20,740 nucleotides of DNA from a virus. Numbering within the stretch: the first letter of the stretch is position 1; the number at the start of each line of letters is the position of its first letter. Both the position numbers and the translations under genes were made by a program. This document shows, one piece after another, positions 509 to 20,740 of the stretch. The notes below the pieces were generated by a model. The model was not told the DNA's origin. It made no database searches and saw only the letters and a program-made list of their open reading frames with translations. The stretch lies in IMG/VR virus record IMGVR_UViG_3300045993_000461, positions 1 to 20,740 of that record. One strand, 5' to 3'.

Positions 509-718
509 CGCAGTATGGTTTCGGATGCAGGTATCGACGAGCTGACCGGCGTGCTGACAGACTTCGTCGTGGGCTGTCTTCGCCGCGTAGGCATTGACGA
601 TCTCACGATGGATGATCTTCTTGTCCCCGCACATGCTCGTCGGCTTGCTCGGTGGCTTGTGTCCTGTGCCCCTGAGCTACGCGACGATGTAATCGACGAC
701 TGCCCGTTGGAGCTGTGA
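497..718 (+). CDS. small acidic protein of unknown function upstream of portal
   Basis: It encodes 73 residues from ATG 497, starting MATMRSMVSDAGIDELTG, predominantly helical and rich in Asp and Leu. CAGGAA lies only 3 bases before ATG 497, so in-frame ATG 506 or 515 are reasonable alternatives. A start at 515 would fit a leaderless transcript from the candidate promoter at 477-508. The stop overlaps the portal ATG as TGATG, implying coupled translation. I recognise no family. Confidence 0.65.
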   Translation: MATMRSMVSDAGIDELTGVLTDFVVGCLRRVGIDDLTMDDLLVPAHARRLARWLVSCAPELRDDVIDDCPLEL

Positions 719-2286
719 TGATACTCTCTGAGCCGTTGGCCGCTGGAACAATCCCTGGTGGCGGCGGTGCGATGGCGAACACCACCGCAGATGCGTACAC
801 CCGTCTGCTGATGTGGGAAGCCACGATGACGATGCGGCGCGGCCAATCCAGGCTGATGCGCTATCGCCGTGCATTCGAGTACTACGGCTCTGAGAATGTA
901 AAGCCCGACGAGCTTATACAGCCTCTGGAGATCAACTACCTCAAGGCAACGTGTGAGGCCCACGCGTCGTTCCTTTGGGGACAGTGGGAGCAGCAGGGAA
1001 GCCTCATTGGCTGGGCGCTCAATCCTCGTATCGGCAAGGGCGACAAGGATGTGATGAATGCTATCAACCAATGGCTGATGGGCCTTTTTGACGGTAGCGA
1101 GGAGACTCTGTTCTCCACGGGCCTGAACCAGTCGATCTACGGCGACGGTATCTTGAAGCCTCGGTATCACCCTGAGTTTGACGCCATTGTGCCTGAGTCG
1201 ATACTCCCTGAGTACTTCCATGTACGATGGAGCAACCACGATGTATCCGAGATGCGCGAGGTGGTGATCTCCTATCCTATCGACAGGAAGGACGCCCTCG
1301 AAGAGTTCGGCACTAAAGGTTCGATGCGCTGGTCTATCGCGGCGACGGGCATTACGACGCAGTTTGCGGTGTACTGGGAGCATTGGACGCCGACGACTCG
1401 TCGTGTGTGGATCGATGACCAGCTTGTGGTCGATGAGCCGAACCCCTTCGGTGCGCAGGGGCTCCCTGGCATCATCCCCTTCGTGCATATTCCCAACGTT
1501 CGCTCGGGCGGTGAGTTCTACGGCACATCGGACATCGAGGCAGTGCTGGCGCTCCAAGATGAGCTAAACAAGAAGATGGCCGATGCGGGTGACCTCATTG
1601 CTTACGCGGCCCACCCCATCGTGCTCATCAAGAAGTACTTCGGTAAGGTCGATGCACTGCCCGTCGGCCCTGACGCTATCTGGGACATGGGGCGCGACGG
1701 TGAGGCCGAGTACATGAGCGGCGGGAAGCCTCCCATCGATATCAACGTGTACATCGACCGTCTCCTTGCAATCTTCCAAGACCTGAGCTATATGCCAGCG
1801 GCTGCGTTTGGCCGTAGCGAGACCACGCAGTCATCGGCGCTCGGACTTGCGATGGAGATGATGCCGGTGACCCAGCGGGTGAACTGGAAGCGGCTGCACT
1901 GGAAGCGGGCGCTGATCAACTACGCGCTGTACGCGGCACGTCTCGCCGAGAAGCACGGCATTTTGCCGTTTCCTCGACGCGAGCTCCAGCGGTACACCTT
2001 CACCCCGACCTTTGCTCCAGTGCTGCCGAAGGATCGGGCTGCGGCCGTTCTGGAGAATGTGTCACTCGTTGGCGCGGGTCTCCGTACCATAAAGAGGGCG
2101 CTCGAAGACATGGGCGAGCGCGACGCTGCCCGTCAGGCGCTGGACATCCTCGCTGAGATTGAGCAGAAGATTGAGCTCGGCATGAAGCTTCAGATCGCAG
2201 GCATCGAGCCCGGTGGAAAGAACAAGCCAGGGTCTGGTGGGTCGCCTGAGACGGGCTCAGCGCAGCGTGACGCGACGAAGGGGTAG
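718..2286 (+). CDS. portal protein
   Basis: A 522-residue protein forming, by family, the dodecameric ring at one capsid vertex through which DNA is packaged and ejected. The central stretch resembles SPP1 gp6-type portals: HIPNVRSGGEFYGTSDIE followed by a long helix with LQDELNKKMADAGDL, then YMPAAAFGR before a helical C-terminal half. The C-terminal tail (GGKNKPGSGGSPETG) is flexible and polar. ATG 718 overlaps the previous stop and has TTGGAG five bases upstream; GTG 715 in the same frame is less likely. Length and position between terminase and scaffold agree with a portal. No protease or MuF-like gene lies between it and the scaffold. Confidence 0.93.
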   Translation: MILSEPLAAGTIPGGGGAMANTTADAYTRLLMWEATMTMRRGQSRLMRYRRAFEYYGSENVKPDELIQPLEINYLKATCEAHASFLWGQWEQQGSLIGWALNPRIGKGDKDVMNAINQWLMGLFDGSEETLFSTGLNQSIYGDGILKPRYHPEFDAIVPESILPEYFHVRWSNHDVSEMREVVISYPIDRKDALEEFGTKGSMRWSIAATGITTQFAVYWEHWTPTTRRVWIDDQLVVDEPNPFGAQGLPGIIPFVHIPNVRSGGEFYGTSDIEAVLALQDELNKKMADAGDLIAYAAHPIVLIKKYFGKVDALPVGPDAIWDMGRDGEAEYMSGGKPPIDINVYIDRLLAIFQDLSYMPAAAFGRSETTQSSALGLAMEMMPVTQRVNWKRLHWKRALINYALYAARLAEKHGILPFPRRELQRYTFTPTFAPVLPKDRAAAVLENVSLVGAGLRTIKRALEDMGERDAARQALDILAEIEQKIELGMKLQIAGIEPGGKNKPGSGGSPETGSAQRDATKG

Positions 2287-2290
2287 GTGC

Positions 2291-2539
2291 ATGGTGGTCT
2301 GGACTCCTGAGATGGACGCAGACGCGCTGCACATGGTGCGGTCTGAGTTTGCCGAGGCATATCCCAACGTCTCGTGCCGCGAGTGGTCACAGCGCCGGTA
2401 CGATCTTTGCCGTGGAATCGTGTCACTACCTCCTTCGGAACTGCTCGACGATCTGCCTCTGGGTGCAGACGACTTTGCATTTCGCTACTTTGGTCACGTC
2501 TTGGACTCTGGCTACGTGTTGAGGTTCCGCCATGGGTGA
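2291..2539 (+). CDS. small protein of unknown function downstream of portal
   Basis: It encodes 82 residues, starting MVVWTPEMDADALHMV, from ATG 2291 behind GGGTAGGTGC, four bases after the portal stop. The frame is open further upstream, but that part overlaps the portal gene and reads as Arg-rich shadow, so I start at 2291. Its last 28 bases overlap the 3' end of the minus-strand winged-helix gene, so the two converge. I recognise no family; by position it could be a head accessory protein. Confidence 0.65.
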   Translation: MVVWTPEMDADALHMVRSEFAEAYPNVSCREWSQRRYDLCRGIVSLPPSELLDDLPLGADDFAFRYFGHVLDSGYVLRFRHG

Positions 2540-3306
2540 AGGTGCCTCTCGTAGTCGTCGGCAATGCGCTGCTTTCCTAGTCTGCGCATTGCGGTGACGA
2601 CCGATCCCATATGCGCCGCCCACTCATCGCGCGGATGTCCTTTGAGCCGCTTTTCGACGAATACCTCGATGGCGTCAGCGGATACGTCGCGGAACTCGTA
2701 GGCCGCTTTTGTGCTTGCTCCTAGCCGCAGGAGCAGCGCCTCGCTGCGTGTGAGCCCGTCGATCTCTCGAAGGACATCATCGTCATCATCCGAAGAGGAT
2801 GACTCCATATCTTGAATCTTCTTAGAGATGGTACTCCTTCCGGTTGCATCGTCCGTATACGGAAAACCTATACTCGGTTTTTCCCCCGTGTGTGTGTTTT
2901 CCATACACGGTAATCTCGACCGTCGTGTTACCCCTCGCGCCTCCCAGAATGCGATGTCTTCCGGTGTGGGGAAGATGAGGTAGTGGTTATTGACGAAGCG
3001 GCTTGCGTCGTTGCGCTCCTGCACGATGAGGAGGACGCGGTGGCCCTCGATGGTGAGGATATCGAGGTGGGACAGTGCGGCCGACACGGTCTGCTCGTTG
3101 TAGCCGGTCTCTTTGGCGAGTAGCCGTCGACCAGGGTGCGACCACCCATCCTTGTCGCTGTGGAGGGCGACGGCGAGGAATACTGCCAGCGGGGCTCCTT
3201 TGAGCAGATGCAGATGGTCTCTGAGTGCGACGGATACTTGGACGTAGATGTCGTCGGCGTAGTCGCCCCCTAGCCGTCGCGTACGCCCGTTGAAGATCGT
3301 GATCAC
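2512..3306 (-). CDS. winged-helix DNA-binding protein, antisense to the structural genes
   Basis: A 264-residue protein and the only convincing minus-strand gene. Residues about 36-95 (APLAVFLAVALHSDKDGWS, then RRLLAKETGYNEQTVSAAL and a short beta wing) match the helix-turn-helix type common in phage and plasmid replication initiators and regulators (HTH_36/DnaD-like). A Ser4-Asp5 tract separates this domain from a helical C-terminal part. The start is GTG 3304-3306 with an AGG-containing site about nine bases upstream. Its promoter must lie in 3307-3360. It could be a replication initiator, a repressor or an accessory gene. Whether it binds the 16-bp palindromes nearby cannot be told from sequence. 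Confidence 0.8.
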   Translation of the reverse strand: MITIFNGRTRRLGGDYADDIYVQVSVALRDHLHLLKGAPLAVFLAVALHSDKDGWSHPGRRLLAKETGYNEQTVSAALSHLDILTIEGHRVLLIVQERNDASRFVNNHYLIFPTPEDIAFWEARGVTRRSRLPCMENTHTGEKPSIGFPYTDDATGRSTISKKIQDMESSSSDDDDDVLREIDGLTRSEALLLRLGASTKAAYEFRDVSADAIEVFVEKRLKGHPRDEWAAHMGSVVTAMRRLGKQRIADDYERHLHPWRNLNT

Positions 3307-3498: not shown

Positions 3499-4170
3499 AT
3501 GACTGATGTGACCACCAATACTCAGACCGACCCCGCGCTCAACACTAGTGCGGGCAACGTCTCGGTCAGCGGTGCGACATCCACGCCCACACCAGGGGCG
3601 GGGGCGCAGCCCGTAGACGCAGAGCGATTCAATGGGCTGATGGCCTCGTTTAACCGGGAACAGAGTGCGCGACAGACCTCAGAGGCCGAAGTGGCGAGAC
3701 TCCAGGGGCTGCTCTCTACGGCAGTGGCCACCGAGATCGACCTTCGTGCGCAGATCACGACGCTAGGAGCAGGGAACACGGAGTCGTTGAGCGCCGCTGA
3801 GGGCCGCGCTGCTGTGGCTGCATCGAATGTGGCCGAACTTACGCAGCAGGTAGCGAGGCTCACTGCGGACAACGTACGCCTCCAGTTTCTTGTCGATCAG
3901 CCGGATCTCGGCGCGTATGCCGCTGTGCTGCCGACCACTGGGAATAAAGAAGACCTCGACCGTGCCGCAGCGGCTATCCGCTCCGCGCGTACGGCCGATG
4001 AGTCACGGGTCAGGGAGCATCTCGCAGGCAGCGGGAGCCGTGGGGCCGGGGGGCCACCGCGTGTGACTGGGCAGCAGATGTCTCCGAGCCAGATCAAAGA
4101 CTATCTTGACAACGCCCCACCCGGCGAGTTCGAGAAGCGGTTCGCCGAGGTGACATCTAAGCGCACGTAG
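3499..4170 (+). CDS. capsid scaffold / assembly protein
   Basis: A 223-residue protein with a Thr/Ser/Pro/Gly-rich N-terminal tail (about 1-38), a long heptad-rich, Ala/Glu/Gln-rich helical region (about 45-135) typical of coiled-coil scaffolds, and a charged C-terminus ending EFEKRFAEVTSKRT. Scaffolds guide coat assembly into a procapsid and then leave. Its place after portal and before the coat gene supports this. The Shine-Dalgarno is weak (AGGG 14 bases before ATG 3499). It has its own promoter (3427) and terminator (4196), so it is probably a single-gene transcript. Such proteins diverge fast; the call rests on composition and order. Confidence 0.75.
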   Translation: MTDVTTNTQTDPALNTSAGNVSVSGATSTPTPGAGAQPVDAERFNGLMASFNREQSARQTSEAEVARLQGLLSTAVATEIDLRAQITTLGAGNTESLSAAEGRAAVAASNVAELTQQVARLTADNVRLQFLVDQPDLGAYAAVLPTTGNKEDLDRAAAAIRSARTADESRVREHLAGSGSRGAGGPPRVTGQQMSPSQIKDYLDNAPPGEFEKRFAEVTSKRT

Positions 4171-4273: not shown

Positions 4274-5239
4274 ATGCGCGCAGTCTACGGCATCTTTCAT
4301 AAGGACTCGGATACGTTCTACGTCGGCAGCTCTATAGACGTTGGCGTGAGGTTTCGGCATCATCGGTATCTTCTTCGGCATAATAGGCATACCTGCGCAT
4401 ATCTACAGAATGCCTGGAACAAGCACGGTGAGGCTTCTTTTGAGTTTCGTGTCATCGAGGAATCGGTTGGCACCTTCGAGGATCTTCGTAGACTAGAGCA
4501 GTCGTATCTCGACAAGCACTGGGGTGGTCTCTACAATTCAATGAAAACGGTCGATATCGGAAACATTTGGGACAGTACTGATCGTCGTGTTCGCATGGCC
4601 GAATCGTTACGTAACTCTGATAGCCGTAAGCGTTGGGCTGCGGAGCAATCCGGTGAGTATCCGTCGCTTACGGGGCCGGATGGTACGGTGTATCCGGCTG
4701 GTACAAATCTACGTGCATTTTGCCGCGAGCATGGTCTTAGTTTTGGGAACATCTATTGTCTTATTCGGGGTCTGTACCGAGGTAAGCTGACTATCTGCGT
4801 AACTGGCTGGACGCTGACGGAGCCACACGACTACGATGAGTTACGCCGCCAGCGGCAGGCGTTGACGGCGGAACGCTACGCGTCCGATGAGTATCGGGAA
4901 TGGCGGCGTAGTCAGCAGCGTGAGGGCAGCGAGCGGGTGAACCTTGGTGAACAGATACGCCAAGCGCGACTACGCGAGTACGAAGATCCTGCGAATCGTG
5001 AAAAGGCAAAGGCGCGGCTCGCGTTGACACAGCATTTGTCGATTGCTGCTGTCGCGATTTCGTACCCAGCGTTTGTCGATCCCGACGGTGTTGTCCATGC
5101 ACCTGGGGTAAATCTACGCGCGTTTATTAAGTCTCATGGAATACGCGGTGAGGGTAACTTTCGTCGGATGGTGCAGGGTCATCATCGGACGTGCGAGGGT
5201 TGGCGGTTAGCGACGGAGGATGAGGCGTCGTCGGTGTGA
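4274..5239 (+). CDS. GIY-YIG homing endonuclease with two DNA-binding repeats
   Basis: A 321-residue protein. The N-terminal GIY-YIG nuclease (about 1-90) shows the YGI-type strand (residues 5-7), FYVGSS with the YIG-like YVG at 16-18, conserved Arg26, the WNKHG helix, and Glu75 as expected metal-binding residue. Two related C-terminal repeats follow (about 129-179 and 264-313), each reading PDG, then NLRAF, HG, GN and a final GW; such repeats serve DNA binding in phage homing endonucleases. It would cut an uninterrupted cognate locus and so copy itself. GGGAGG lies just before ATG 4274. It has its own promoter and sits alone between scaffold and coat genes, with more AT-rich codon use than its neighbours: signs of a mobile insertion. 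Confidence 0.9.
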   Translation: MRAVYGIFHKDSDTFYVGSSIDVGVRFRHHRYLLRHNRHTCAYLQNAWNKHGEASFEFRVIEESVGTFEDLRRLEQSYLDKHWGGLYNSMKTVDIGNIWDSTDRRVRMAESLRNSDSRKRWAAEQSGEYPSLTGPDGTVYPAGTNLRAFCREHGLSFGNIYCLIRGLYRGKLTICVTGWTLTEPHDYDELRRQRQALTAERYASDEYREWRRSQQREGSERVNLGEQIRQARLREYEDPANREKAKARLALTQHLSIAAVAISYPAFVDPDGVVHAPGVNLRAFIKSHGIRGEGNFRRMVQGHHRTCEGWRLATEDEASSV

Positions 5240-5342: not shown

Positions 5343-6533
5343 ATGCCTGATGTGATTAGCGATGTAATCGTCTCAAGCGATTTGCCTGATGCGATGCAAG
5401 TTATATATTCGTCTGAGCTGGGCTTCACCAGCAAGGCCAACGTGATCTACGACCAGTTCGCAGATCGCAAGTCGGACTTCGCCGGAGGCAAGGGCACCAC
5501 CGTCGTGTGGACGACCTATCAGAACCTGCCCCCGAGCATCAAGCCGCTGGTGGAAGACCAGGACGTGGGCGGGATGCAGGTCGCCGACTTCCAGACGGCC
5601 CTCACGATGGAGGAGTACGGCACCGCCATCGGTACCACCGAGAAGATGGATCTGACGAGCCACCACGGCCCGATCAGTAATCTCGTTCGCACGATGCTCG
5701 GCCCGCAGCTTGCGCTCACCACCGATCTGCTGGCCCGCAATGCGATGTTCGACCCGACCAAGGCCACCTACCGCAGCTTCGCGGGCGGCGTCGCCAATCG
5801 CTCGCTGCTCACCGCAGCCGGCGGCAAGCTGACCCCGCAGATCTGCAAGGCGGCGGCGTTCAACCTCGGCGTGCGGCGCATCCAGCCGACACAGGAGGGC
5901 TACCTCGCGGTGGTTCATCCGGCGCAGATCTACGACCTTCGCGACGACCCGTTCTGGATCGACGTGAACAAGTACACCCGTCCTGAGACCATCCTCAATG
6001 GCGAGGTGGGCAAGCTCTACGGTGTGCGCTTCGTCGAGGCTGCGAACTCTCGTCTGCCCAACGGCGGGCTCACCGCCCACCAGACCACGCTGGCGGGTGA
6101 CTCGATTGGCAACCGCGACTATATCACCGTCGTGGCTGCTGCGGGCTTCGCTGCGGGGATGGAAGTGACCATCCATCGGCACTCCACCGTGCCGGATGGC
6201 ACCGATGAGACTGAGGAGCATGTGGTTATCCGCGAGGTCGTGGGCACACGCCTGTACCTGCGCGCCAAGACCACGATGAACCACGCGGCCGGCGACTACG
6301 TCACCGACGGCGTCGATGTCTATGTCACGGGCTTCATGGGCATGGACAAGGCGCTGGGCCGTGGGGCGGTGCTGGAGCCCCAGGTGCGCGTGGCTCTGCC
6401 GACCGACAAGCTGCGCCGCCAGAGCCACGTGGGCTGGTACGCGCTGATGGGCTATGGGATTATCCGCGACTGGGCGCTCGAAGTCGTCGAGACTGCCGCC
6501 AGCGTGTCCGGTGCCCCGGCCTTCCCCTGGTAG
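5343..6533 (+). CDS. major capsid protein, N4-gp56 family
   Basis: A 396-residue coat protein. Features of the N4-gp56 family (HK97 fold) are visible: GTTVVWTTYQNLPP near residue 52, the beta-rich MEEYGTAIGTTEKMDL, and the P-domain-like stretch GYLAVVHPAQIYDLRDD followed by ILNGEVGKLYGVRFVEAANS. Between about residues 240 and 325 an extra beta-rich segment (DYITVVAAAGFAAGMEVT through VVIREVVGTRLYLRAKT) is inserted before the fold resumes at DVYVTGFMGMDKALGRG; it may project from the shell. AGGGA lies nine bases before ATG 5343. It has its own promoter element and leader, and the codons are strongly G/C-ending, as expected for the most abundant virion protein. Confidence 0.93.
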   Translation: MPDVISDVIVSSDLPDAMQVIYSSELGFTSKANVIYDQFADRKSDFAGGKGTTVVWTTYQNLPPSIKPLVEDQDVGGMQVADFQTALTMEEYGTAIGTTEKMDLTSHHGPISNLVRTMLGPQLALTTDLLARNAMFDPTKATYRSFAGGVANRSLLTAAGGKLTPQICKAAAFNLGVRRIQPTQEGYLAVVHPAQIYDLRDDPFWIDVNKYTRPETILNGEVGKLYGVRFVEAANSRLPNGGLTAHQTTLAGDSIGNRDYITVVAAAGFAAGMEVTIHRHSTVPDGTDETEEHVVIREVVGTRLYLRAKTTMNHAAGDYVTDGVDVYVTGFMGMDKALGRGAVLEPQVRVALPTDKLRRQSHVGWYALMGYGIIRDWALEVVETAASVSGAPAFPW

Positions 6534-8637: not shown

Positions 8638-9017
8638 TGGCACTCGCAACGCAGAAGCTCACGATGGATGTGGGGGCCACGTTTCGGTTCCTGTATACGT
8701 GGCGCGACGATAAGGGGTTCCGTGTAGACCTGGATGGGTACACAGCGCGAATGCAGATACGGGCTTCTCGTGGGATCATGGGTATCCTACTCGCTGACCT
8801 TCCTACCTCGACGATTCGTCTCCAGGAGGATAGGGACGCCGAGGGCGGCGTGCTTGGGGTTATCTGTGTGCTGGTGCCTCCACGTATGGCGGATATTCCG
8901 TTCTATGCAAAGTCTGGGTACTATGATCTTGTGCTTACTGCGCCGGACGGTACGGTGAGCCGTGTCTTAGAGGGGGCCATTGTGTTCAATGCGATGACGA
9001 CGGATATGGCTCGCTGA
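8637..9017 (+). CDS. small beta-sandwich phage structural protein
   Basis: A 126-residue protein with the layout of a common phage family: GATFRFLYTWRDDKG, DLDGYTARMQIRAS, a polar middle, then YYDLVLTAPDGTVSRVLEG and a final strand. Members form compact all-beta proteins and occur in head-tail and baseplate modules; exact roles are mostly unassigned. ATG 8637 overlaps the previous stop, with AAGGGGGA upstream, and its own stop overlaps the next ATG as TGATG. It is probably translated together with its neighbours. Confidence 0.65.
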   Translation: MALATQKLTMDVGATFRFLYTWRDDKGFRVDLDGYTARMQIRASRGIMGILLADLPTSTIRLQEDRDAEGGVLGVICVLVPPRMADIPFYAKSGYYDLVLTAPDGTVSRVLEGAIVFNAMTTDMAR

Positions 9018-9910
9018 TGGAATTTACGATCCTTGGTCTGTACGACGGCGTACATGCGTTGTCCCATCTTCGTGTTCGGGAGATGCTTCGATCCTTCGGT
9101 CACGGCCACGGATGGGCGGTGTACAGCGGTGAGCCCATCGACACGACGGCGTACACGTCGATTATCATCGACAGCGCGTTCGACTTCGAGTGGATCGATG
9201 AGATTGCTCGACGGGGCCGCGATCAGCGTCGTGTGGTGATTCTCGACATTGCGGAGGTCGACGCTGCGCGCATTGTCCATGATCATCGGTTCTCAACGCT
9301 GCTCGACAGTCTCGACGCTATTACCGTTGAGACGGTGGCGACTCAGGTACTGGTTGCGCCGTTTATGCCGATGAACACGGTTATGCACGTGCCGACGCTC
9401 ATCGACCCGCAGCGGTGGAGCCTGCACACGGAAGAATCTCGCGACATCGTGATGATCGACAGCAAGGCGCATTACGAACTGGCATCGACGCTGCCGTCGT
9501 ATCTCCAGTCTGACGTGGTGCTGCTCGATCCACGTGACGTGTTCAGCGTGAGCGCGTTTGCGCGGCAGATCGCTGGGGCGGACATCGGCATCTGCACCGA
9601 CGGGCTTCCGCTCGGCCCACTGCTCTTCGGCGCTGCGCGGGTGCCGGTGATCGCGTCGATGTCTCATCTGACGACGATTGGCCGGCGGGGCATTGTGCTA
9701 TCCGACGCCGATGTGCTGAACATCGCTTCCGCTGTTGATCGCTTGCGGGAGGATCGGTCTTTGCACTACCGTCTTGCATCCTCGCTACACGACCACGTGT
9801 GTCAGCGGTGGAGTATCCATAACGCAGGGTCGGTTGGGGCGACGCTCGCGAATCTGGATTATGTGCATCGACGTGTGCGTCGTAAGCTGTATACGATCAG
9901 CGCCGCGTGA
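9017..9910 (+). CDS. glycosyltransferase-like protein (GT-B fold, GT4-like C-terminal half)
   Basis: A 297-residue protein. The N-terminal half alternates strands and helices (EFTILGLYDGV, SIIIDSAFD, RVVILDIAEVD). A linker reading VAPFMPMNTVMHVPTLIDPQRW resembles the NGVD region of group 1 glycosyltransferases. The C-terminal half has ADIGICTDGLPLGPLLFGAARVPVIAS, matching the sugar-nucleotide-binding segment that ends in G-PVVAS, then IVLSDADVLNIASAVDRLREDRSL and a final helix with HVCQRWSI. The usual Glu of the EX7E motif is not evident and the protein is shorter than most members, so activity is uncertain. It could modify a virion protein. ATG 9017 overlaps the previous stop. Confidence 0.6.
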   Translation: MEFTILGLYDGVHALSHLRVREMLRSFGHGHGWAVYSGEPIDTTAYTSIIIDSAFDFEWIDEIARRGRDQRRVVILDIAEVDAARIVHDHRFSTLLDSLDAITVETVATQVLVAPFMPMNTVMHVPTLIDPQRWSLHTEESRDIVMIDSKAHYELASTLPSYLQSDVVLLDPRDVFSVSAFARQIAGADIGICTDGLPLGPLLFGAARVPVIASMSHLTTIGRRGIVLSDADVLNIASAVDRLREDRSLHYRLASSLHDHVCQRWSIHNAGSVGATLANLDYVHRRVRRKLYTISAA

Positions 9911-9942: not shown

Positions 9943-9981
9943 CTTATGCGTTCGGCCACACCGACGTTGAGGAGCCTCACC

Positions 9982-11028
9982 ATGTCGCTTAGTTCGCTTA
10001 AAGGTAGTGTAGGCGTCGGTATCCAGGCCGCAAAGGGTACCCCGGCGACTACGTTTGCCTACTTTCCTACGCTCAATGCCAATGTCACCGGCGAGCAGAT
10101 GGCGCAGAACCTTCCCCCCGAGGTCGGCGGCACCTACTTTAGCCGTGGCGCGTATAAGGCCGGTCTCCGTGCTCGTGGCGAGCTGGCTATGATCCCCCGG
10201 CCTGATAGCGTCGGCTGGCTGCTTCGAAGTCTGTTCAACGCGGAGTCCCAGGCGATCTCTACCGATGTGGATGCCGCCGCTGTGCTGCTCCACGATCACG
10301 TGTTCACCGTCGGAGACACTGCGGCCCATCCGCATAAGTGGCTCACGGTGCGTCGTAGTGTCTCCGGTGCCTACGGCGAGCAGATGTCCGATGCGCGTGT
10401 TGGCTCGTTCCGCATCGAGGCTGCGGCCGCAGGCGTGGTGCAGACGTCGGTGCAGCTCCTGGGCGGTCTGCACAGCGAGATCCCCGGCGAGGACGTGATG
10501 GCCGAGGATGGCCCGGTGTTCCTGACCTGTTCCGCCGATGTGACGGAGGGCGGTGCTCCGTTCATTGTGGATCGTATCTCGGTGGAAGCCGGTGCGCAGC
10601 TCTCGGACAATGAGTTCCGCGTTGGTAGCTACTATCTGGACGACATCACCCTGCTCCAGCGCGCGGTGACTATCCAGGCCGACGTGCGTATCAAGGCACG
10701 CGATCTGGTTGCCAAGGTCTATCGCAACAATGCGGCCGCCCCGGCGGCGGGGACGCTTGGCGCGTGGAGCCCGGTGCTGTACCGCTCTGGCATCGTGCTG
10801 GAGTTCCGCACGGCAGAGGTCGTGCCACAGATCCTGCGAATCGAGATGCCCGGCGTGGACTTCCTCACACTGCCGGTGCAGTTGTCTGGTGCCGAGATCG
10901 TCCGCGCGCAGCTCAGCGCGTCGGTGACCCTGGACGTGGACAACTTCGACGCTGCGGACGCGGACAGCGCGACGCTCCAGCCGATCAAGATCACCCTGCG
11001 CAACGCGCGTACCACGCTGTACGCGTAG
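9982..11028 (+). CDS. tail tube protein
   Basis: A 348-residue protein starting MSLSSLKGSVGVGIQAAKGT. The N-terminus (VGIQAAKGTPATTFAYFPTL) and the all-beta body with NEFRVGSYYLDD and the late VTLDVDNFDAAD fit the phage_tube_2 type of tail tube protein, which stacks in rings around the tape measure in long-tailed phages. I start at ATG 9982 because GAGGAG lies seven bases upstream and the promoter element ends at 9942; ATG 9946 would be at or before the transcript start. It is flanked by its own promoter and a UUCG-capped terminator, as expected for an abundant protein. Confidence 0.88.
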   Translation: MSLSSLKGSVGVGIQAAKGTPATTFAYFPTLNANVTGEQMAQNLPPEVGGTYFSRGAYKAGLRARGELAMIPRPDSVGWLLRSLFNAESQAISTDVDAAAVLLHDHVFTVGDTAAHPHKWLTVRRSVSGAYGEQMSDARVGSFRIEAAAAGVVQTSVQLLGGLHSEIPGEDVMAEDGPVFLTCSADVTEGGAPFIVDRISVEAGAQLSDNEFRVGSYYLDDITLLQRAVTIQADVRIKARDLVAKVYRNNAAAPAAGTLGAWSPVLYRSGIVLEFRTAEVVPQILRIEMPGVDFLTLPVQLSGAEIVRAQLSASVTLDVDNFDAADADSATLQPIKITLRNARTTLYA

Positions 11029-11181: not shown

Positions 11182-11625
11182 ATGCCTGTTCGTAATCAGA
11201 AGAGTTCGGCGGTCGCGAAGACCCGCGTGCTGAGTCCCAACGACGCCATCGACGACGGTGGTATGGGCATCCCCCTGGATCTGCTCGAAGACGGTACGCC
11301 CGATGTCTCATCGCGCGTCGAGTTCATCGTCAAGATCGCCGACAACCGCGCCGTGCTGGCCCGCCAGGATCTCTTCTCCAAGGTGAAGTACATCAACGAG
11401 GGCGACGGCACCGCCACTGAGCGCAGCTTCCCGATGGGCGCGCTGCGGCTGGAGACGGTGATGCTGGTGCTCACGGGGTGGAACATCACGCCCGACGAGA
11501 AGAGCGCGCCGTACCCGATCACCCACAACAATGTGCTCGACCACGTGAAGCCTGACGAGATGCAGTGGCTCTACGACCGCATCATCGACATGAACGTCGC
11601 GTGGGGTGGCTCGGGGGAAGGCTAA
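11182..11625 (+). CDS. tail assembly chaperone, short form (G-like)
   Basis: A 147-residue protein starting MPVRNQKSSAVAKTRVLSP, with AGGAG eight bases before ATG 11182. The C-terminal part, RLETVMLVLTGWNITPDE through VKPDEMQWLYDRIIDMN, has the pattern of tail assembly chaperones in long-tailed phages, which bind the tape measure protein while the tube polymerises. It lies after the tail tube gene and before a very long gene, the usual order. A G5 run (11613-11617) near its end allows a -1 shift into the next frame. Confidence 0.8.
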   Translation: MPVRNQKSSAVAKTRVLSPNDAIDDGGMGIPLDLLEDGTPDVSSRVEFIVKIADNRAVLARQDLFSKVKYINEGDGTATERSFPMGALRLETVMLVLTGWNITPDEKSAPYPITHNNVLDHVKPDEMQWLYDRIIDMNVAWGGSGEG

Positions 11626-11918
11626 GGCTCGAAGAGGAGATCCGTGAGCAGGTCACCCGGCTTGTTCAAGACGGCTCCATCGCCGAGCCTGGGCTGCACC
11701 TTGATGCGTGGCTGATGTGTAGGAAGCTCCAGGGAGGATCGGAGACCCGAGTCCTCCCTGACGCGGGCGGGGCGCTCGATCAGAACGCAGAGCTTACCTG
11801 GGCCTTCGGGATCATCGAAGACCAGTACGCCCAAGAGACTGAGCTAAAGAAGAACTTTGCCGAGCGTTCTGCGAAGAACGAGGAACTTCGACAAAGCCTG
11901 ATACGACAACGAGGGTAG
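11616..11918 (+). CDS. tail assembly chaperone extension (T-like), made by -1 frameshift
   Basis: The frame one base back from the G-like gene continues past its stop and ends at TAG 11916-11918, adding about 100 residues (GRLRLEEEIREQVTRLVQDG through ELRQSLIRQRG), helical and charged. Tail chaperones are typically made as a short form and a frameshifted long form. The slip would be at the run of five G in TCGGGGGAAGG (11611-11621), where a Gly tRNA on GGG can re-pair with GGG one base back. The only upstream in-frame start, GTG 11565, has no ribosome site, supporting a fusion that begins at 11182. Confidence 0.72.
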   Translation, partial: GRLRLEEEIREQVTRLVQDGSIAEPGLHLDAWLMCRKLQGGSETRVLPDAGGALDQNAELTWAFGIIEDQYAQETELKKNFAERSAKNEELRQSLIRQRG

Positions 11919-11922
11919 GTCA

Positions 11923-14900
11923 ATGAGCCAGGACGATGAGAACATCGAGGCCAGTCGGGTACGTCGTGGTACGGTGCGTGGCGCAGGCGCGGCGAATACC
12001 GGCGCGCAGCGGCGTCCGAATCCCGATGGGGTGTATCGTCCTGGCGCTGACCTGTCTCAAGGCGACGGCGGCGCGTACGGCCCGCACGAAGATAATCGGC
12101 GGCTCACGGCGCTAGGCGACACGTCGCATCTCTCCACGGAGCGCGGCCCTGACGGTCGCGCCTTTCTCGTGGATACGTCGCGCGGTATCCGTAATCGGCC
12201 TACGTTTGAGTCGGTGCGTACGCCGATGGGGCCGATACTCACGACGGAGGCTCGGGTCGCTGCGGACATGAAGCAGGCTCTTCGCGCTGGGCAGTCGACG
12301 GTATCGCTCGATCCACAGTTTAGCACGTCGGTACACACGCCGAACGTGCCTTTGCAGTACGGCCCTGGTGTGCTGCGTACGGTGCTGACCGAGGCGCAGG
12401 CTGGTGTGCTGAGCAATCAGACCCAGAGCACGCGTATGGGCATCTCGTCGCTTGCCACAACGGGCGGTCGCTCGACGTACGGGCACGAGGGCTCCAGGCC
12501 GCAGGCAGGCTCGCCGTCGTCGATGTTCTCAGTTCAGCAGCGCGGGGCCGACGGTCAGCATACCGTCGTGGATACCAGTGACTACTACCGGGGCGGTAGT
12601 GACTCACATACGGGCATGGCGGGCGGTGATCGTCCGGTGGCCCACAGTGCGTGGCCGCTGGCTGCGTCTGGGGTTGGCGGCGATCCTACGGGTGTAGCCA
12701 ACGATGAGGCGTCACGTCGTCAGCGTGACTCCTTTGGGCTGCTCCAGCGGCGGCAGGCCGACGCTCCGAGCAACCCGGTGGCCGCAGAGGCGGCGAAGGC
12801 GCGGCTGTTTCTGGGTCTCGATGCTCCTCTTTACACGGGCGTGTCGATGCATAAGAAGCCGATGAAGTTCCGCATTGCCCCGCCCACCGACCCGACGGCT
12901 GAGGCGGCGCTCAAAGGGCGCGGCTTCGACGCGGCCGACCCCTCCCTTACTGCTGATCCTCCGGCATCTGAGGCATTCCCCGAGAAGAACGTCTATCTCC
13001 CGAATCAACAGGAGAAGGAAGCCTACTACGCGTCGATCAAGACGGCGCATACGGCGCACTTCGACAAGCTCCAGAAGCCGACGAAGCTCGGCACGATGCT
13101 CGACAACATTGTGACCGGCGCAGGCTTTCAGCGGCCTACGGTTGGTACGACGTCTGTGTCGCCGTTTCCCGCCGGTGGCCGGGTGCCTCTGCCCACCGGC
13201 TATGCAGCTCCCGGTGGCGGGGCCACAGGGTTTACCGATGAGCGGAACCGCGCTGCTCCGCTGGGTGCCTACGAGCGCGGCGACGACGCTACTCCCGGCG
13301 TGCATCAGGCCACGTATGTTGAGCCGAGCCCGCTGGCTGCGGTTCGGTCTCCGATGCCCCAAGGTCTGCGTGGTACGGTATTCCCCGAGGCGGCGGCGTG
13401 GGACGCGACGGTGGAGCATCCCGGTGCCCCTGGCTACGAGCGCAAGGTGCGTGGTGCGGTGCCGGTTATCCCTGAGGAGGCGCAGTCGTCGGAGCTGTCG
13501 CAGCGGTTCGAGGACGCCGGTATGGCTATCGCGCGCTCGACGCTCGCTGGTGCCGGAGGTTCCCACGAGCTTCTGCCGATGATGCAGCTCGCGCAGAGCG
13601 TGGGCCAGCGGTACGGCGTCCAGGGCGCGGACTACGTGGGGATGGTCTCTGACTTCTCCCGCGATCTCACCGACCGCTTTGGCGGGTTCCGTGGGCTGCT
13701 CGACAAGGCGCTCGTCGGTGGCGTGATGACGGCTGAGGAGGCGGGGCCGTTTGCGCAGGGCACGCCATCGTCTAGCTCTTGGGACAGCACCGGCGAGCAG
13801 GGCCATAGCAACGCTCAGCGTCTTGGCGAGTTCGTGACGACGCGGCTCCTGCTTAGCGGGAAGCTCAGTGAGTTCGTGGGCGCTGATCCGAGCATCGATG
13901 CGGAGAAGCTGGCGAAGCTCAACGAGGTCGTGGCCCCGAAGCTCCAGCACCTTGAGGCGGCGCGGGCGGTGACCAAGATCGGGGCGCACGATAAGGCCGA
14001 AGGGGCGACGGTCGACGGTAACGACAGCCGGGGTGAGATCGGCATCTCAGGCTTCGGCGGTGAGGACGCCTTCGCGGCTGGTAACCATGTCTCGGCCCCT
14101 TCGGACGCCGACAACGACCAGACACGCCTCGTCAACCAGACCGACCGTGAGCTTGGCGCTGCGCTGAGCAACCTCGGGTCGGCTCTGGAGGTGGCTCAGC
14201 GCCAATCTCAGGGCCGCGACATCACCCACGCGGGTGTTGCGGTGTTCAACCACTCCACAGGCCGCGTAGAGGCTGGGCCGCGTGTCAGCGACTTCTTCCG
14301 CATCCCTGCTATGGCGACCCAGGAAGCAGACTCTGCCGTGAACAGCGCGATGGGCGGTGTTACCGATACCCCGAGTGCTGATTTGGTTATGCGCGAGTTC
14401 AGGCGCATCAACGGCGAAGATGCGGCGATGAGTCGGCAGCAAGCCGAGAAGACGGCGAAGCTCATTGGGCGGGGTCGTCGCACCAGCGCATACCGGCTCC
14501 ACGACTACGGCACGGCGGGCGACGTTTCCGAGGTTGAGAGCGCGCAGTACCACAACTTCACGCTCGACGAAGACCCGTCGACGGCGCAGGACGACATCGG
14601 CGCGCGGAGCGAGCAGAGCATCTTTCAGCGGTATGGGTCGTCAGGCGATTTCCAGGCAGATCCGCTGTCTCTGGCGCTGCGGCACACGGGGCTGGCCGAG
14701 GGCATCCCGCTCAACCGCAAAGAGGAAGCGCTGTACGCTGGCCGTACGCATGAGCCGCTGTCGCTGACACAGATTGGTCAGATGCTCACGAAGTCGCGGT
14801 ACACGCACTCCGACCGCACCGACGTGAACCGGAATGCGCAGCGTGTGTACACCTTCGGCGACCACGTCTCTGACATTCTGACGATGAACCACAGCGAGGC

Positions 14901-17900
14901 TCCGATCTTCACAGAGATGGATGTCGCTGGGGTTGGTGTGGGTGCGGGGCCAACGAAGTACCGCAAGACGCTGCCGAAGTATACGGCGGCGGATCTGTCG
15001 TACCTGGATACGATGCCTGCACGCGCGGAGGGGACGACCGATGCGCAGTGGGAGGCGCAGCAGGGATCAACGAGTGCAGGCTACGAGGCAAACGTGCTGG
15101 CTCACGTGAAGAACCTCGCATCAGGGAAGTCGCAGGCATTCGGCACCGATGATGCTGAACTTCGGAAGATGATCGTTGGCGTGGGAAGCGGTGCCATCGA
15201 CCACGACGCGAAGGCGAAGCCGGATCAGCGGTCTACGCTTCGTGGGGCGCTGGGTCACGTGCAGGGGATTGGGTTATGGCAGGACAACGTCGGCGCTCGG
15301 GCGTCGGACTCTGAGGTCTCTGGTATGTACCTTGGCGGTCTCCGACGTGCAGTCGAAGATCGCCGTGATGCTCTATCTCCGAGCTTCTATGCGGCGCTCC
15401 AGCGTCGGATGGGCAAAGAGGGCGCGACGGTGGACAACGTCGTAGGGCGGCTTCTCACAGGTAGGGCTCGTCGCGGTCGTACCGGCGAACTGATGCCCAA
15501 CGGTGACCCCTACTCAGGGCGCGATCAGCAGCGTATTTTCGAGGACGTGGTTAAGCAGGCCAGCGTCTACGGTCGTCAGGTGCAGGCTGAGCATGTGGCA
15601 GCGTCGGGTAGCGTGACCACGTATGATGATGTGGTCTACGGTCGTACCAAGACGGCCGTAGTGCAAGAGCGCGCGACGGTTCTTGCGCGTAAGGATCTCG
15701 AAGCGCAGCTCGTTGGCAAGACGGCTCGGGAGCAGGCCATGCTCACCGGAAACCGAGGTGCAAAGTACGGCCCGCTGTCCGAAGACAAGGACATGGTCTA
15801 CGGCCCTCGTATGGCGACCGATGCGGAGATCTACGGAACGCGCAACGTGCCGCTCCAGGGTGTGCTTCGCGCGACGGGCGAGCGTGGTCTAGCTGACGAC
15901 GCCGCATACGCTTCGCGTGCTGCCGGTGCCCCTGATCGTCGGTCGACGTTCCGTGAGTCGTTCAGCGGCGCGCTGGCTGCGGAGTATAAGGACGCGAAGT
16001 ACGCCGAGGTGGAGCGTAGCCGCCCGAAGACGTCACTTGACGCATCGAGCCGCTATCGTAGTCAGGTGACGAAGGCAGATCTGGATCGTGCCGATCAGGT
16101 GCCTGCGGATCAGCGCTGGATGGCCGAGGCGCTGGGCGTTGTGGGCGAGGGGCGCAAGGGCATCGTGAGCGGACGCCAGCGGCTTGATCCTAAGCGCCGG
16201 GATCGGCTCTACGATTTCATGCGGTCTCAGGGCCAAGACCCGTCGATGTTCGACGGCATGGGCCACGGCCAGATATCGAAGTACCTCAAGACGGCGCTGA
16301 CGATGGGCGCTATCCAGCGGTCAAGCTCAAACAGTTTCGATCAGTTCGTCGATGACCACGGCAATCTGAGCCACACGACGCATGAGAACTTCGATATCTA
16401 CAAGCACCTTCGTGGGGTGTCGAACCAGAACGCGTTCATCGCGGGTATTGGCAACCCCAAAGGCTCAGTCCGAGATCGGACTAGGGGCGGCTACAACTTT
16501 GTCCAGCAGCTTGGGCTTTCGCTCGATCCGGCGAGTGTGTCGCAGGAGCGGATCGAGGGCGTGGCCGACGGGCGGCTAGGGCGGGGAGAGGGCTTCAAGG
16601 ACGCCGACTTCCCTGACGCGCGCAAGGTGAGCCTCCCTGAGTTCATCTCAGGGAAGAACCAAGACCTCATCCGCCTGCGTGCGGGTCAGCGTGGTGTGCG
16701 CGGTGAGATCTTCGGCCGCAAGGCTGCGGATGGGACGTGGGATCGTACCGGCGCGGACTCCTACATCGCCGGGAAGCAGATGCGCGAGGATCGGCTGGCG
16801 GCGGCGTCTGCACGTCGTGCGCTCCCCCGCGCCTTCATGAAGGCTGAGGGCATCTCCCAGGCGGGCTCCGACGCCGACCGCGACCGCGTAGACATTGAGC
16901 TGGAGAAGCTAGAGACGAAGATGGGGCGGAAGAAGGTCGATGCGGGCGTCGCTGAGCGCCACGCGAACCTCACCGCAGTGCAGGACTACTGGAAGGCACG
17001 TAGTCGCGGCCAGGATGCGGCGGCGATCTCGCACGAGCAGCGAGCGAAGATCCGTGAGCTGGAGCCAATGATTGCTCAGGGCCAGAAGGTCATGAGCTTC
17101 TTCAACGCGCCGCTCGTTGACTCTCACGATGATACGGCGAAGGTCATCGCTCGCGCACGGCACTCGGAGCGCCAGCAGCAGATGGGCGAGTACATCGACG
17201 CCAACGCCTCGCTCTTGGCGCAGCGTGACGCGGCGGGCAGGCCCATCGCTTACGACCGTGACAATGCAGGCACCTACAGCGTTGCTCACATTCGTAACGC
17301 ATTTCGCGAGAGCCTAGAGGGAGGCACGGTACAGGACGCCATCGCGCGTACATCAGCGCTGATCGACGACCACGACCGCTTCCGCGAGCAGGCTGCTCAG
17401 CGTGACGGTAATCCGTTGCTGACCCGAGACAGCGTCGCACGGACAGCGTCAATCCTCGACGCCCGCACGGACTTCCTGCCGATCTCGTTCGATCCGGCGA
17501 CCGTGCGCAACGCGACGGATCGGAGTAGCTTCGTATACGCGAAGGGGGCCGGAGACTACCCGACCCAGGCAGCGGCAGTCGAGGGGGCGGCGCTGACAGG
17601 CATTGGCGAGACCGGCATCATGGCCGACAGCTCGGGTGTCGCTCATCGGAAGAGCGCTGAGCAGATGTACATCGAGTACGCCGGTCGGGCGCTCTCGAAG
17701 CATGACCCTGCGCGTGCAGACCTTGACCAGCTCTCGGTGATTCGTGCGTCGCACGATGGCTACACGTCGGTGGACTCTGGCGCGGGTGGCGGCAAGACGG
17801 AGATGGCGTTGGGCTTTACGGCGAAGACGCTGTGGGAGACTCGGAAGGAGGAAGAGGCGACTGGCACGCCGTCAGACACGAACTTCATCATCCGCACCTT

Positions 17901-20740
17901 CGCCAAGTCGGCGGCTGTGGACATTGAGCGTAAGCTCGATGCGAAGATGGCGAAGTATGACCGGGATCGGGTCGATGTGAAGACCCTGGACGCCGACGCG
18001 ATGAACATCCTTGAAGGCTCGATGGCGTTCCGTCGTGATGCGCTAACGCAGCACACCGGCATCGATGGCTGGGCTGATCAGAGCGCGAAGGTGGACGGCC
18101 AGTCGCAGTCTCCGAAGACGGCGTCGAAGCTGAACCGCATCGTCAGTGAGGACTCGCTGTACGCCCACCTCGGCGACGCGTACCGCAACGCGGGTGGCGA
18201 CACTAAGAATATTCTTGGTGGGAGCTACAAGTCGCTCTGGGAAGACCACATTGTTCCGCTGATGCGCGACCAGGAGATGATCGGCAGCGAGGCTCTGCGT
18301 GCGCTACCCCAGGATGCGACTGCGGAGCACCAGCTCGCGGCGCGCACGATGGAGTCGATGCACCGTGGCTATGCGGCGACCGGCTCCGCAGACCCACTCT
18401 TTGCGGCCATCGCCGCGACTCGGATGCTGAACAACGACGATGTGATGCGCAAGGAAATGCGCGTTGACCAGACGGTCGGTGTGGTGGACGAGGCTGAGGA
18501 CGTGACCAACGCCCACGCGCGGTTCATCTCGGCGCGCTTTGGCAAGGGCTTGATGGCCATCGGCGATGCAGGCCAGAACACGGGCTTGGGCTGGCGCGGC
18601 ACGGCGTTGAACTTCAAGCAGACGCTGGGTAATCTCTGGGGCGGTCGGTCACAGGGTAACACGACGATCAACCCCGAGCTGGCGCTCACTCGAAGCTACC
18701 GTCAGGGGCCGGCGGGCACCGAGGCGGCGAACGCTATCCTTGGGAAGTCCATCACCGGCAACCCAGACCTCGAAGGTGTTCTTGCCTACACGCCGCATGA
18801 TACGCGGGCTAAGGAGATCGCAGCGCAGGCGGATCATATCGCAAAGATGTGGTTCGATCCGGCGATGCACGACAAGTTCACCGATCCGAACAATAGCAAG
18901 GCGACGATTGGCGTCTTTGCTCCCAACCACGTCAATAGCGAGAACGACCCTATCGACGAGCGGATGGGCGAGGCGTTGACGGCGCGCGGTGTTCCTTGGG
19001 CTGATGCGAAGAACGCGGGTAACGACGTTGTCACGCTCGATACCGTCGAGGGCGTGCGCGGTCGCACCTTCGGCACTGCGTTCGGCTTTGGCTTCGGTGA
19101 GGACGGCGGGCAGCGTCCTGGTACGATGAACCAGCTCACGTTTAAGAACGCGCCGATTGCATCACCGGGTCAGATTGCGCAGGCGCTGGCGTCGGGTGAC
19201 ATCGCGGGTGCGCTGAGTGGGGCCAAAGACACGGCGCGCAAGGCGATGGATCGGATGAAGACGGCGTTTACCGGGTACATCGGATTGACGCGGTCGAACA
19301 CGACGATCCTTACTGGCACGGGCGCACCAAGTCGCATCATTCAGCCTGCGCTTGATGCGCTGCGCGGCCGTCGTGGTGAGGCGCTCCCTGAGAAGAACTA
19401 CACGGTGGCCGAGGCGGTGCCGATGGGCCGTGGGGCCGACGACGCGGCCTTTGACCCGGCGATGCTCCACGCAATCACCGAGCAGGGTATGCGGCTGTCC
19501 GCAGAGACCGGCAGCGAGGCCGCACTGACGAAGGACATCCATCACCTCATCCCTGCCGATATGCAGCTCGCCAAGGGCATCGAGCCGTTGATGGCCGAGC
19601 GCGCCCGACAGCACCTTGTGCGCGGCCACGAGGATCAGCACGGCAGCGCGGCTGGGGCCGTAGACGATAACACAGGTGCCCACGTTCGTGACTTCGTGAG
19701 CAACCTGGGCGCTCCGCTGATGCACGATGTGGCAGGTACGGGTGAGCTGACCCAGATGCCCCAGGTTCGTATGAACTGGGAGCAGGTTCAGCGGGTTATG
19801 GCTGGGGATATGACGGCGCTGGTCGGCACGAAGCGCCAGGGCGCTATTCTCGACAAAGAGGGTGAACTCAAGCGCAAAGACGACGGATCGGTCATCGACT
19901 ACGGTCACCGTGAGATTGCGCTCATCGACCATGCGCGCGGTATCAAGACTCCTCGTGCCACCGGCATTGTCCTCAACTTCGGCGACCGTGCTGAGCAGAC
20001 GGCGTTCCAGGCGCTGGCAGGAGAGCATAGCCTCTCCGACGATGAGCTTCGGCGCACTGGTTTGACCCGCGATCAGCTTGGTGCAGAGCTGGCGGCGACG
20101 CATCCGATGTCGCGTCTTAACGACCAGGGTGTGCCTACGGCGTTCCGTGGTCAGCAGGAGTTTGCTCGGGGCGACCATCCGACGAAGGCCGACGTCGGCT
20201 ATCTGAATAAGTTCAGCGTCGCGGCGATGCCCGACCATCTGCGCGCAGCGTCGGTGAACCCCATCGCAGTGGACGCGCAGTCGCGGTACGCCTCTGAGGA
20301 TAACCCGAACGGCGCACGGTACGGCGTGCCTGCGATGCCTGCACAGAGCGCCCGCTATGTCGAGCGTGACGGCAAGCTCTACGATGCTCGTCAGCTTGTC
20401 TCTGGCACCGCAGACGACAAGCGCAACCCCTGGGCAAGTCGGGTGTCGAGGATCGTTGGTAAGACTCGGGAGCGGGTTGCCTACGGCGGCTCTTTCTCCG
20501 CAACGAGCGACCGTGCGGCCTACGACGCGCACATGGCCGCAGGCGGCACCGGCTTTGATCTGGAGGGCCAGGACTGGGCCGACGCGAAGATTACCGACAA
20601 GGCCGCAGAGCTGGCGGCGGTCAACGGTACCTCTCGCGCCGGTCTCGCGGGCCAGCACCTTGCGCAGACGTTGAGGCGGGGCGGCGCACACGACTTCTTC
20701 GAGGGCATTGGCAGCGCGCTCTCTGACAATCAGCACGCGA
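11923..20740 (+). CDS. giant tape-measure-position protein with SF1 helicase domain (3' end outside window)
   Basis: The frame is open from ATG 11923 to the edge: 2,939 codons, no stop. GAGGG lies seven bases upstream. Residues 1 to about 450 are Gly/Ser/Pro/Ala-rich and probably disordered. About 470-1640 is mostly helical and unrecognised. Residues 1648-1730 are a charged, coiled-coil-like stretch. About 1930-2470 is a UvrD-like helicase. The rest (2470-2939) holds HEDQH at 2569-2573 and FDLE near 2879. No membrane segment and no cysteine is present. The gene follows the tail tube and frameshifting chaperones, where the tape measure gene normally sits. It may be a tape measure with an enzymatic domain, or a multidomain (polyvalent-type) virion protein injected with the DNA. 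The function of most of it is unknown. Confidence 0.85.
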   Translation, partial: MSQDDENIEASRVRRGTVRGAGAANTGAQRRPNPDGVYRPGADLSQGDGGAYGPHEDNRRLTALGDTSHLSTERGPDGRAFLVDTSRGIRNRPTFESVRTPMGPILTTEARVAADMKQALRAGQSTVSLDPQFSTSVHTPNVPLQYGPGVLRTVLTEAQAGVLSNQTQSTRMGISSLATTGGRSTYGHEGSRPQAGSPSSMFSVQQRGADGQHTVVDTSDYYRGGSDSHTGMAGGDRPVAHSAWPLAASGVGGDPTGVANDEASRRQRDSFGLLQRRQADAPSNPVAAEAAKARLFLGLDAPLYTGVSMHKKPMKFRIAPPTDPTAEAALKGRGFDAADPSLTADPPASEAFPEKNVYLPNQQEKEAYYASIKTAHTAHFDKLQKPTKLGTMLDNIVTGAGFQRPTVGTTSVSPFPAGGRVPLPTGYAAPGGGATGFTDERNRAAPLGAYERGDDATPGVHQATYVEPSPLAAVRSPMPQGLRGTVFPEAAAWDATVEHPGAPGYERKVRGAVPVIPEEAQSSELSQRFEDAGMAIARSTLAGAGGSHELLPMMQLAQSVGQRYGVQGADYVGMVSDFSRDLTDRFGGFRGLLDKALVGGVMTAEEAGPFAQGTPSSSSWDSTGEQGHSNAQRLGEFVTTRLLLSGKLSEFVGADPSIDAEKLAKLNEVVAPKLQHLEAARAVTKIGAHDKAEGATVDGNDSRGEIGISGFGGEDAFAAGNHVSAPSDADNDQTRLVNQTDRELGAALSNLGSALEVAQRQSQGRDITHAGVAVFNHSTGRVEAGPRVSDFFRIPAMATQEADSAVNSAMGGVTDTPSADLVMREFRRINGEDAAMSRQQAEKTAKLIGRGRRTSAYRLHDYGTAGDVSEVESAQYHNFTLDEDPSTAQDDIGARSEQSIFQRYGSSGDFQADPLSLALRHTGLAEGIPLNRKEEALYAGRTHEPLSLTQIGQMLTKSRYTHSDRTDVNRNAQRVYTFGDHVSDILTMNHSEAPIFTEMDVAGVGVGAGPTKYRKTLPKYTAADLSYLDTMPARAEGTTDAQWEAQQGSTSAGYEANVLAHVKNLASGKSQAFGTDDAELRKMIVGVGSGAIDHDAKAKPDQRSTLRGALGHVQGIGLWQDNVGARASDSEVSGMYLGGLRRAVEDRRDALSPSFYAALQRRMGKEGATVDNVVGRLLTGRARRGRTGELMPNGDPYSGRDQQRIFEDVVKQASVYGRQVQAEHVAASGSVTTYDDVVYGRTKTAVVQERATVLARKDLEAQLVGKTAREQAMLTGNRGAKYGPLSEDKDMVYGPRMATDAEIYGTRNVPLQGVLRATGERGLADDAAYASRAAGAPDRRSTFRESFSGALAAEYKDAKYAEVERSRPKTSLDASSRYRSQVTKADLDRADQVPADQRWMAEALGVVGEGRKGIVSGRQRLDPKRRDRLYDFMRSQGQDPSMFDGMGHGQISKYLKTALTMGAIQRSSSNSFDQFVDDHGNLSHTTHENFDIYKHLRGVSNQNAFIAGIGNPKGSVRDRTRGGYNFVQQLGLSLDPASVSQERIEGVADGRLGRGEGFKDADFPDARKVSLPEFISGKNQDLIRLRAGQRGVRGEIFGRKAADGTWDRTGADSYIAGKQMREDRLAAASARRALPRAFMKAEGISQAGSDADRDRVDIELEKLETKMGRKKVDAGVAERHANLTAVQDYWKARSRGQDAAAISHEQRAKIRELEPMIAQGQKVMSFFNAPLVDSHDDTAKVIARARHSERQQQMGEYIDANASLLAQRDAAGRPIAYDRDNAGTYSVAHIRNAFRESLEGGTVQDAIARTSALIDDHDRFREQAAQRDGNPLLTRDSVARTASILDARTDFLPISFDPATVRNATDRSSFVYAKGAGDYPTQAAAVEGAALTGIGETGIMADSSGVAHRKSAEQMYIEYAGRALSKHDPARADLDQLSVIRASHDGYTSVDSGAGGGKTEMALGFTAKTLWETRKEEEATGTPSDTNFIIRTFAKSAAVDIERKLDAKMAKYDRDRVDVKTLDADAMNILEGSMAFRRDALTQHTGIDGWADQSAKVDGQSQSPKTASKLNRIVSEDSLYAHLGDAYRNAGGDTKNILGGSYKSLWEDHIVPLMRDQEMIGSEALRALPQDATAEHQLAARTMESMHRGYAATGSADPLFAAIAATRMLNNDDVMRKEMRVDQTVGVVDEAEDVTNAHARFISARFGKGLMAIGDAGQNTGLGWRGTALNFKQTLGNLWGGRSQGNTTINPELALTRSYRQGPAGTEAANAILGKSITGNPDLEGVLAYTPHDTRAKEIAAQADHIAKMWFDPAMHDKFTDPNNSKATIGVFAPNHVNSENDPIDERMGEALTARGVPWADAKNAGNDVVTLDTVEGVRGRTFGTAFGFGFGEDGGQRPGTMNQLTFKNAPIASPGQIAQALASGDIAGALSGAKDTARKAMDRMKTAFTGYIGLTRSNTTILTGTGAPSRIIQPALDALRGRRGEALPEKNYTVAEAVPMGRGADDAAFDPAMLHAITEQGMRLSAETGSEAALTKDIHHLIPADMQLAKGIEPLMAERARQHLVRGHEDQHGSAAGAVDDNTGAHVRDFVSNLGAPLMHDVAGTGELTQMPQVRMNWEQVQRVMAGDMTALVGTKRQGAILDKEGELKRKDDGSVIDYGHREIALIDHARGIKTPRATGIVLNFGDRAEQTAFQALAGEHSLSDDELRRTGLTRDQLGAELAATHPMSRLNDQGVPTAFRGQQEFARGDHPTKADVGYLNKFSVAAMPDHLRAASVNPIAVDAQSRYASEDNPNGARYGVPAMPAQSARYVERDGKLYDARQLVSGTADDKRNPWASRVSRIVGKTRERVAYGGSFSATSDRAAYDAHMAAGGTGFDLEGQDWADAKITDKAAELAAVNGTSRAGLAGQHLAQTLRRGGAHDFFEGIGSALSDNQHA
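16467..16482. promoter_or_regulatory. 16-bp palindrome copy 4 (AGTCCGA-GA-TCGGACT), inside the giant gene
   Basis: Both 7-base arms are exact, with centre GA. In the reading frame it spells part of GSVRDRTRGG and forces a CGA and a nearby AGG Arg codon, while Arg elsewhere in this gene is mostly CGT, CGC or CGG. No promoter element is seen beside it. It could be a regulatory or DNA-binding site imposed on coding sequence, or chance. Confidence 0.5.
17710..19332 (+). other. UvrD-like superfamily 1A helicase domain within the giant protein
   Basis: Motifs occur in the canonical order. Q motif: LDQLSVIRA, Gln1936. Motif I (Walker A): GAGGGKTE, Lys1958. Ia: FIIRTFAKSAAVDIERKL (1988-2005). Ib: VKTLDADAMNIL (from about 2019). 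II: VVDEAEDVT, Asp2189-Glu2190. III: AIGDAGQNTGLGWRG, Gln2218 and Arg2225. IV: LTRSYRQGPAGTEAANAIL, Arg2260. IVa-like: IGVFAPN to MGEALTARGVPW. V: TLDTVEGVRGRTF (2371-2383). VI: YIGLTRSNTTILTG, Arg2457 as arginine finger. Catalytic residues are kept, so ATPase activity is plausible. Oddities are DEAED for DEAQD, Glu2376 where the His of motif V is usual, and a short stretch between IV and V that leaves little room for a 2B domain. Confidence 0.88.

Follow-up and report, generated by a model that had tools for sequence, protein, structure and literature searches.

A UvrD-like superfamily 1 helicase domain in a giant, cysteine-free protein encoded in the tape-measure slot of a tailed phage

Enzymes delivered with the virion are already known, the N4 RNA polymerase and the P1 Dar proteins among them, and P1 DarB is an ejected protein. 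N4-like virion RNA polymerases contain no cysteine, and a relevance of this trait to cell entry has been suggested (PMC2784036, PMC3715699). Iyer et al. (2017) described SF2 (SWI2/SNF2) helicase modules in polyvalent proteins such as P1 DarB, as well as UvrD-like SF1 helicases that a few actinomycetes carry within giant proteins, in conjugative contexts (PMC5512222). Literature titles and abstracts yielded no description of a helicase in the tape-measure slot.

The window (the whole stretch of DNA analysed, 20,740 nt, which is the full length of the genome's record) is a tailed-phage structural block, comprising genes for the portal, a putative scaffold, the major capsid protein, several small proteins and the tail tube, followed by chaperone-like frames and a giant ORF (Table 1). 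A reading made from the sequence only had placed a tail tube and frameshifting chaperones ahead of the giant; the tail tube was supported by its family match, and the chaperones by their position and overlapping −1 frames, with no family matched by either frame and a weak frameshift signal. The putative scaffolding protein likewise matched no family. A GIY-YIG homing endonuclease gene (4274-5239, + strand; PF01541, phrog_314) separates the putative scaffold gene from that for the capsid protein, and a replication-initiator/HTH-like gene (2512-3306, − strand) lies within the structural block, between portal and scaffold, but on the opposite strand. Directly ahead of the tail tube is a gene for a 297-aa protein (9017-9910, + strand), which matched nothing in phages, Pfam or NCBIfam and gave a chance-level match only in PHROG.

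Table 1 Positions of structural genes and helicase motifs in the window (residue numbers refer to the giant protein).
Feature	Position (nt)	Strand	Basis
Portal protein	715..2286	+	phrog_64, E=3e-14
Putative scaffolding protein	3499..4170	+	Location between the portal and capsid genes; no family match
Major capsid protein	5343..6533	+	phrog_1357, E=1.5e-38
Tail tube protein	9946..11028	+	Phage_tube_2 PF18906, E=6e-13; phrog_290, E=2e-15
Putative tail assembly chaperone, first frame	11182..11625	+	Position, overlap with next frame
Putative chaperone extension, −1 frame	11565..11918	+	Overlapping open frame
Giant ORF, 2,939 codons	11923..20739	+	No cysteine, no membrane-like segment; 3' end outside contig
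Q-like motif DLDQLSVIRAS, residues 1933-1943	17719..17751	+	By-eye reading against UvrD
Motif I / Walker A SGAGGGKT, residues 1952-1959, Lys1958	17776..17799	+	Single occurrence, 0.0007 expected; PF00580
Motif II / Walker B VVDEAED, residue 2187	18481..18501	+	Single occurrence, 0.0004 expected; helicase-profile alignment
Motif III IGDAGQNTGLGWRG (IGDAGQN..GWRG, residue 2213)	18559..18600	+	Profile alignments
Motif IV LTRSYRQ, residue 2255	18685..18705	+	Single LTRSYR-pattern occurrence, 0.08 expected; helicase-profile alignment
Motif V TLDTVEG, residue 2371, degenerate	19033..19053	+	Single pattern occurrence, 0.012 expected; outside every profile match
Motif VI YIGLTRS, residue 2452	19276..19296	+	Single occurrence, 0.0004 expected; outside every profile match

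The open frame that this reading had reported behind the tail-tube and chaperone-like genes is intact: it opens with an ATG 4 nt past the second chaperone frame, continues uninterrupted and runs off the contig. Its codon-position GC pattern resembles that of the neighbouring genes. The encoded protein is hydrophilic (GRAVY −0.55), and no internal repeats were found in it. Scans against Pfam and similar collections detected the helicase as the only domain; approximately 1,900 residues match nothing, the C-terminus lies beyond the contig, and no polyvalent LPD, ART, peptidase or methylase domain was detected in the available sequence.

Profile comparisons support the UvrD-like motif set proposed for residues 1930-2470. 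UvrD (PF00580) matched residues 1940-2226 above the curated cut-off (E = 3.1e-8 with the whole protein, 2e-9 with a 600-aa piece), and the PHROG DNA helicase family phrog_1967 matched with E = 6e-7. A custom profile built from E. coli UvrD, Rep and two Streptomyces phage helicases aligned with residues 1945-2275, through motif IV (hmmsearch 5.7e-9, for a search space of one protein); comparison of this profile with the giant by hhalign gave a probability of 86%, versus 0.1% for another piece of the same protein used as control. A weak match to GajB (E = 0.044) was also obtained, and AlphaFold run without homologues gave no usable model (mean pLDDT 34).

Motifs I-VI follow one another in the same order as in UvrD, within residues ~1930-2460; the chance expectations in Table 1 were calculated from the composition of the giant protein. 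Both Walker motifs and the arginines of motifs IV and VI are intact, and the Walker A lysine falls at Lys1958, as predicted. The Q-like motif is no evidence by itself, since a loose Q...[VIA] pattern is expected ~30 times by chance, and motif III was placed by profile alignments because its spacing, one residue longer, caused the pattern to miss it. Motifs I, II, III and IV, expected with the 1A domain of SF1A helicases, are all represented. For the 2A domain, motif VI is good and motif V degenerate (TLDTVEG versus TLHSAKG in E. coli UvrD, with the usual His and Lys missing); the second RecA domain is assigned from these two motifs only, and profile scans of the giant gave no match to the UvrD C-terminal family. 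Motifs IV and V are ~110 residues apart, versus roughly 275 in E. coli UvrD (our own count), a distance too short to accommodate a complete 2B subdomain. On this evidence, the region is an SF1A-type domain, probably a compact one.

No homologue of the giant was found by tblastn in phages and plasmids or by a viral-contig scan with a 760-aa piece. Further viral-contig scans returned 600 candidate stretches with the helicase alignment, 26 with the fragment of motifs II-III and 47 with motif peptides joined together, and a genome-contig scan returned 365; none of these was confirmed. Single-protein scans match exact 8-residue stretches, and distant relatives may escape them. A PDB sequence search gave chance matches only. 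The case consequently rests on a single truncated sequence, which is its main weakness.

We then considered whether the composition of the giant resembles that of ejected proteins. It contains no cysteine in 2,939 residues, whereas its codon-position composition predicts ~37, and the cysteine rate in the window's own structural genes predicts 8.7 (P 1.7e-4). Cysteine is also missing from T7 gp15, from T7 gp16 and from the 3,342 residues read of N4 virion RNA polymerase, versus 12 in the 883 residues of T7 RNA polymerase, 10 in T7 DNA polymerase and 13 in the gp4 primase-helicase. The ejected P1 DarB has 9, so absence of cysteine is not required, and as these controls are few and hand-chosen, the trait is supportive rather than proof. 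The overall hydropathy of the giant is close to that of N4 virion RNA polymerase, T7 gp15/16 and polyvalent giants, and unlike that of tape measures. Large, cysteine-free, hydrophilic and encoded in the structural block, the giant has the traits of ejected giants.

Polyvalent proteins, which unite at least two domains in a single chain and typically pair conflict-related enzymes with LPD domains, were examined in capsid-related phages. A single-protein scan with the capsid protein found no relatives; 80 loci were collected through a three-row alignment and used for this comparison only. Two of the five giant ORFs scanned in these loci carry polyvalent domains above the Pfam cut-off (ART-PolyVal and LPD23 in L022, LPD3 in L053), and L023 has a sub-threshold ART-PolyVal. 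The L022 giant, on a viral contig (14699-20665), is a cysteine-free ORF of 1,989 aa. The capsid protein is all that these phages have in common with the window, so the likeness is one of analogy, not synteny. The cysteine-free, hydrophilic profile, the position in the structural block and the polyvalent giants of capsid-related phages together strengthen the idea of carriage and ejection. The reading we favour, at a probability of roughly 55%, is that the giant is a virion-packaged protein of the polyvalent/N4 virion RNA polymerase type, bringing an SF1 translocase into the host along with the genome, and that the tape measure lies past the contig end; packaging and ejection of the giant are what we infer from these traits.

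The giant could instead be a large non-virion protein, a helicase for replication or recombination that carries long extensions, acts in the cytoplasm during replication and lies among late genes by chance. Free UvrD-like phage helicases do exist (e.g., Streptomyces phage JustBecause gp80), but the two compared here are far smaller (495 and 501 aa) and contain cysteine; the total lack of cysteine in nearly 3,000 residues and a gene that directly follows the chaperones likewise make this explanation unlikely. Alternatively, the giant may be a virion protein in which the helicase domain has lost catalysis and is retained for structure or DNA binding; this would account for the deviant motif V and the undetected UvrD C-terminal family in what is one sequence. 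The intact Walker A, Walker B and arginines of motifs IV and VI speak against it, and we consider this the least probable of the three alternatives weighed here.

The third alternative, an unusual tape measure with an inserted helicase domain, would have the giant set tail length and its helicase part ejected too. Viral contigs and named phages supplied the tail-tube relatives (58 ORFs with a match to the tube; genome contigs gave none), and a tape-measure profile was grown from the Demosthenes tape-measure domain (PhageMin_Tail). This profile matched ORFs in 49 tail-tube loci, several of the loci without a match being short contigs; most tail-tube relatives use for the tape measure the very slot, behind tail tube and chaperones, that the giant occupies. 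The size also fits, with tape measures of about 2,900-3,300 aa in Gordonia, Rhodococcus and Tsukamurella phages, and so does the cysteine depletion: the tape measures of L003 and L096-L152 have 0.034% Cys versus 0.343% in the following genes, approximately tenfold less, and cysteine therefore cannot separate cargo from tape measure. The giant, however, scored −1.2 bits against the profile, which is no match for the part of the ORF within the contig. Near-complete tape measures in tail-tube loci have 10-39 membrane-like segments and GRAVY values of about −0.10 to +0.33, whereas the giant has none and its GRAVY lies well below that range; partial ORFs at contig ends show fewer segments (e.g., none in the 599 residues of L127). 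P-loop-like strings occur in the tape measures of some relatives, and the helicase profile did not match them.

In a contig with a related tail (L138), a gene for a 1,287-aa PhoD phosphatase/laminin-G protein (11793-15653) separates tail tube and tape measure, so gene insertion in this slot is possible. With this precedent, the missing profile match and the absence of membrane-like segments, it is likely that the giant is an additional gene and that the real tape measure lies downstream past the contig end, although the ORF is cut off by the contig end and could have a tape-measure part at its far end. We place the tape-measure alternative between the other two in likelihood. Of the original proposals, an SF1 helicase in the tape-measure slot is thus real, by domain matches and gene position, and a giant that itself serves as tape measure found no support, lacking the domain and the hydrophobic segments.

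Under the favoured reading of a virion-delivered translocase, the giant would be produced late, alongside the tail proteins, travel in the particle and pass through the tail into the host as the first DNA enters. There, ATP would power movement of the UvrD-like SF1A domain along single-stranded DNA, at ends or gaps in the incoming genome. This translocation could strip host end-processing or restriction enzymes from the entering DNA or, alternatively, help start replication, in either case before phage gene expression. The ATPase activity, the substrate and the purpose of the domain are what we infer for it. The full proposal, that the particle of a long-tailed phage contains a UvrD-type SF1 helicase within a cysteine-free giant, that the tail injects it and that the motor acts on the incoming genome ahead of all phage gene expression, seems to us evenly poised. 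If true, delivery of an SF1 motor by a tailed phage would extend the range of injected cargo to a DNA-translocating enzyme, a type of delivered enzyme that is rarely seen. How a long-tailed phage accommodates a tape measure plus a protein of ~300 kDa or larger, and how incoming linear DNA is dealt with at the very start of infection, would become testable questions.

Among known systems, polyvalent proteins such as P1 DarB resemble the giant in joining a giant protein to a DNA-acting enzyme, with proposed entry into the host alongside DNA; they differ in that the giant's helicase is SF1, belongs to a tailed phage and follows chaperones, and in that the scans of the giant detected neither LPD or ART domains nor a peptidase or methylase. 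N4 virion RNA polymerase and T7 gp15/gp16 are also large, hydrophilic, cysteine-free and encoded in a structural block, but they are podovirus proteins with RNA polymerase or internal-core/wall-degrading functions and no helicase. The tape measures of Gordonia, Tsukamurella and Rhodococcus phages (Demosthenes, Woes, TIN4, Trogglehumper) share the slot, the size range and the cysteine-poverty of the giant, but are hydrophobic and carry a tape-measure domain (PhageMin_Tail plus lytic transglycosylase in Demosthenes), neither of which applies to the giant. UvrD, Rep and PcrA share the ordered motifs I-VI, whereas the giant's domain lacks room for a full 2B, has a degenerate motif V and is fused behind ~1,900 unmatched residues. 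Virion-delivered enzymes and UvrD-type helicases in giants of conjugative elements are thus already known; delivery of an SF1 helicase by a tailed phage would be the addition.
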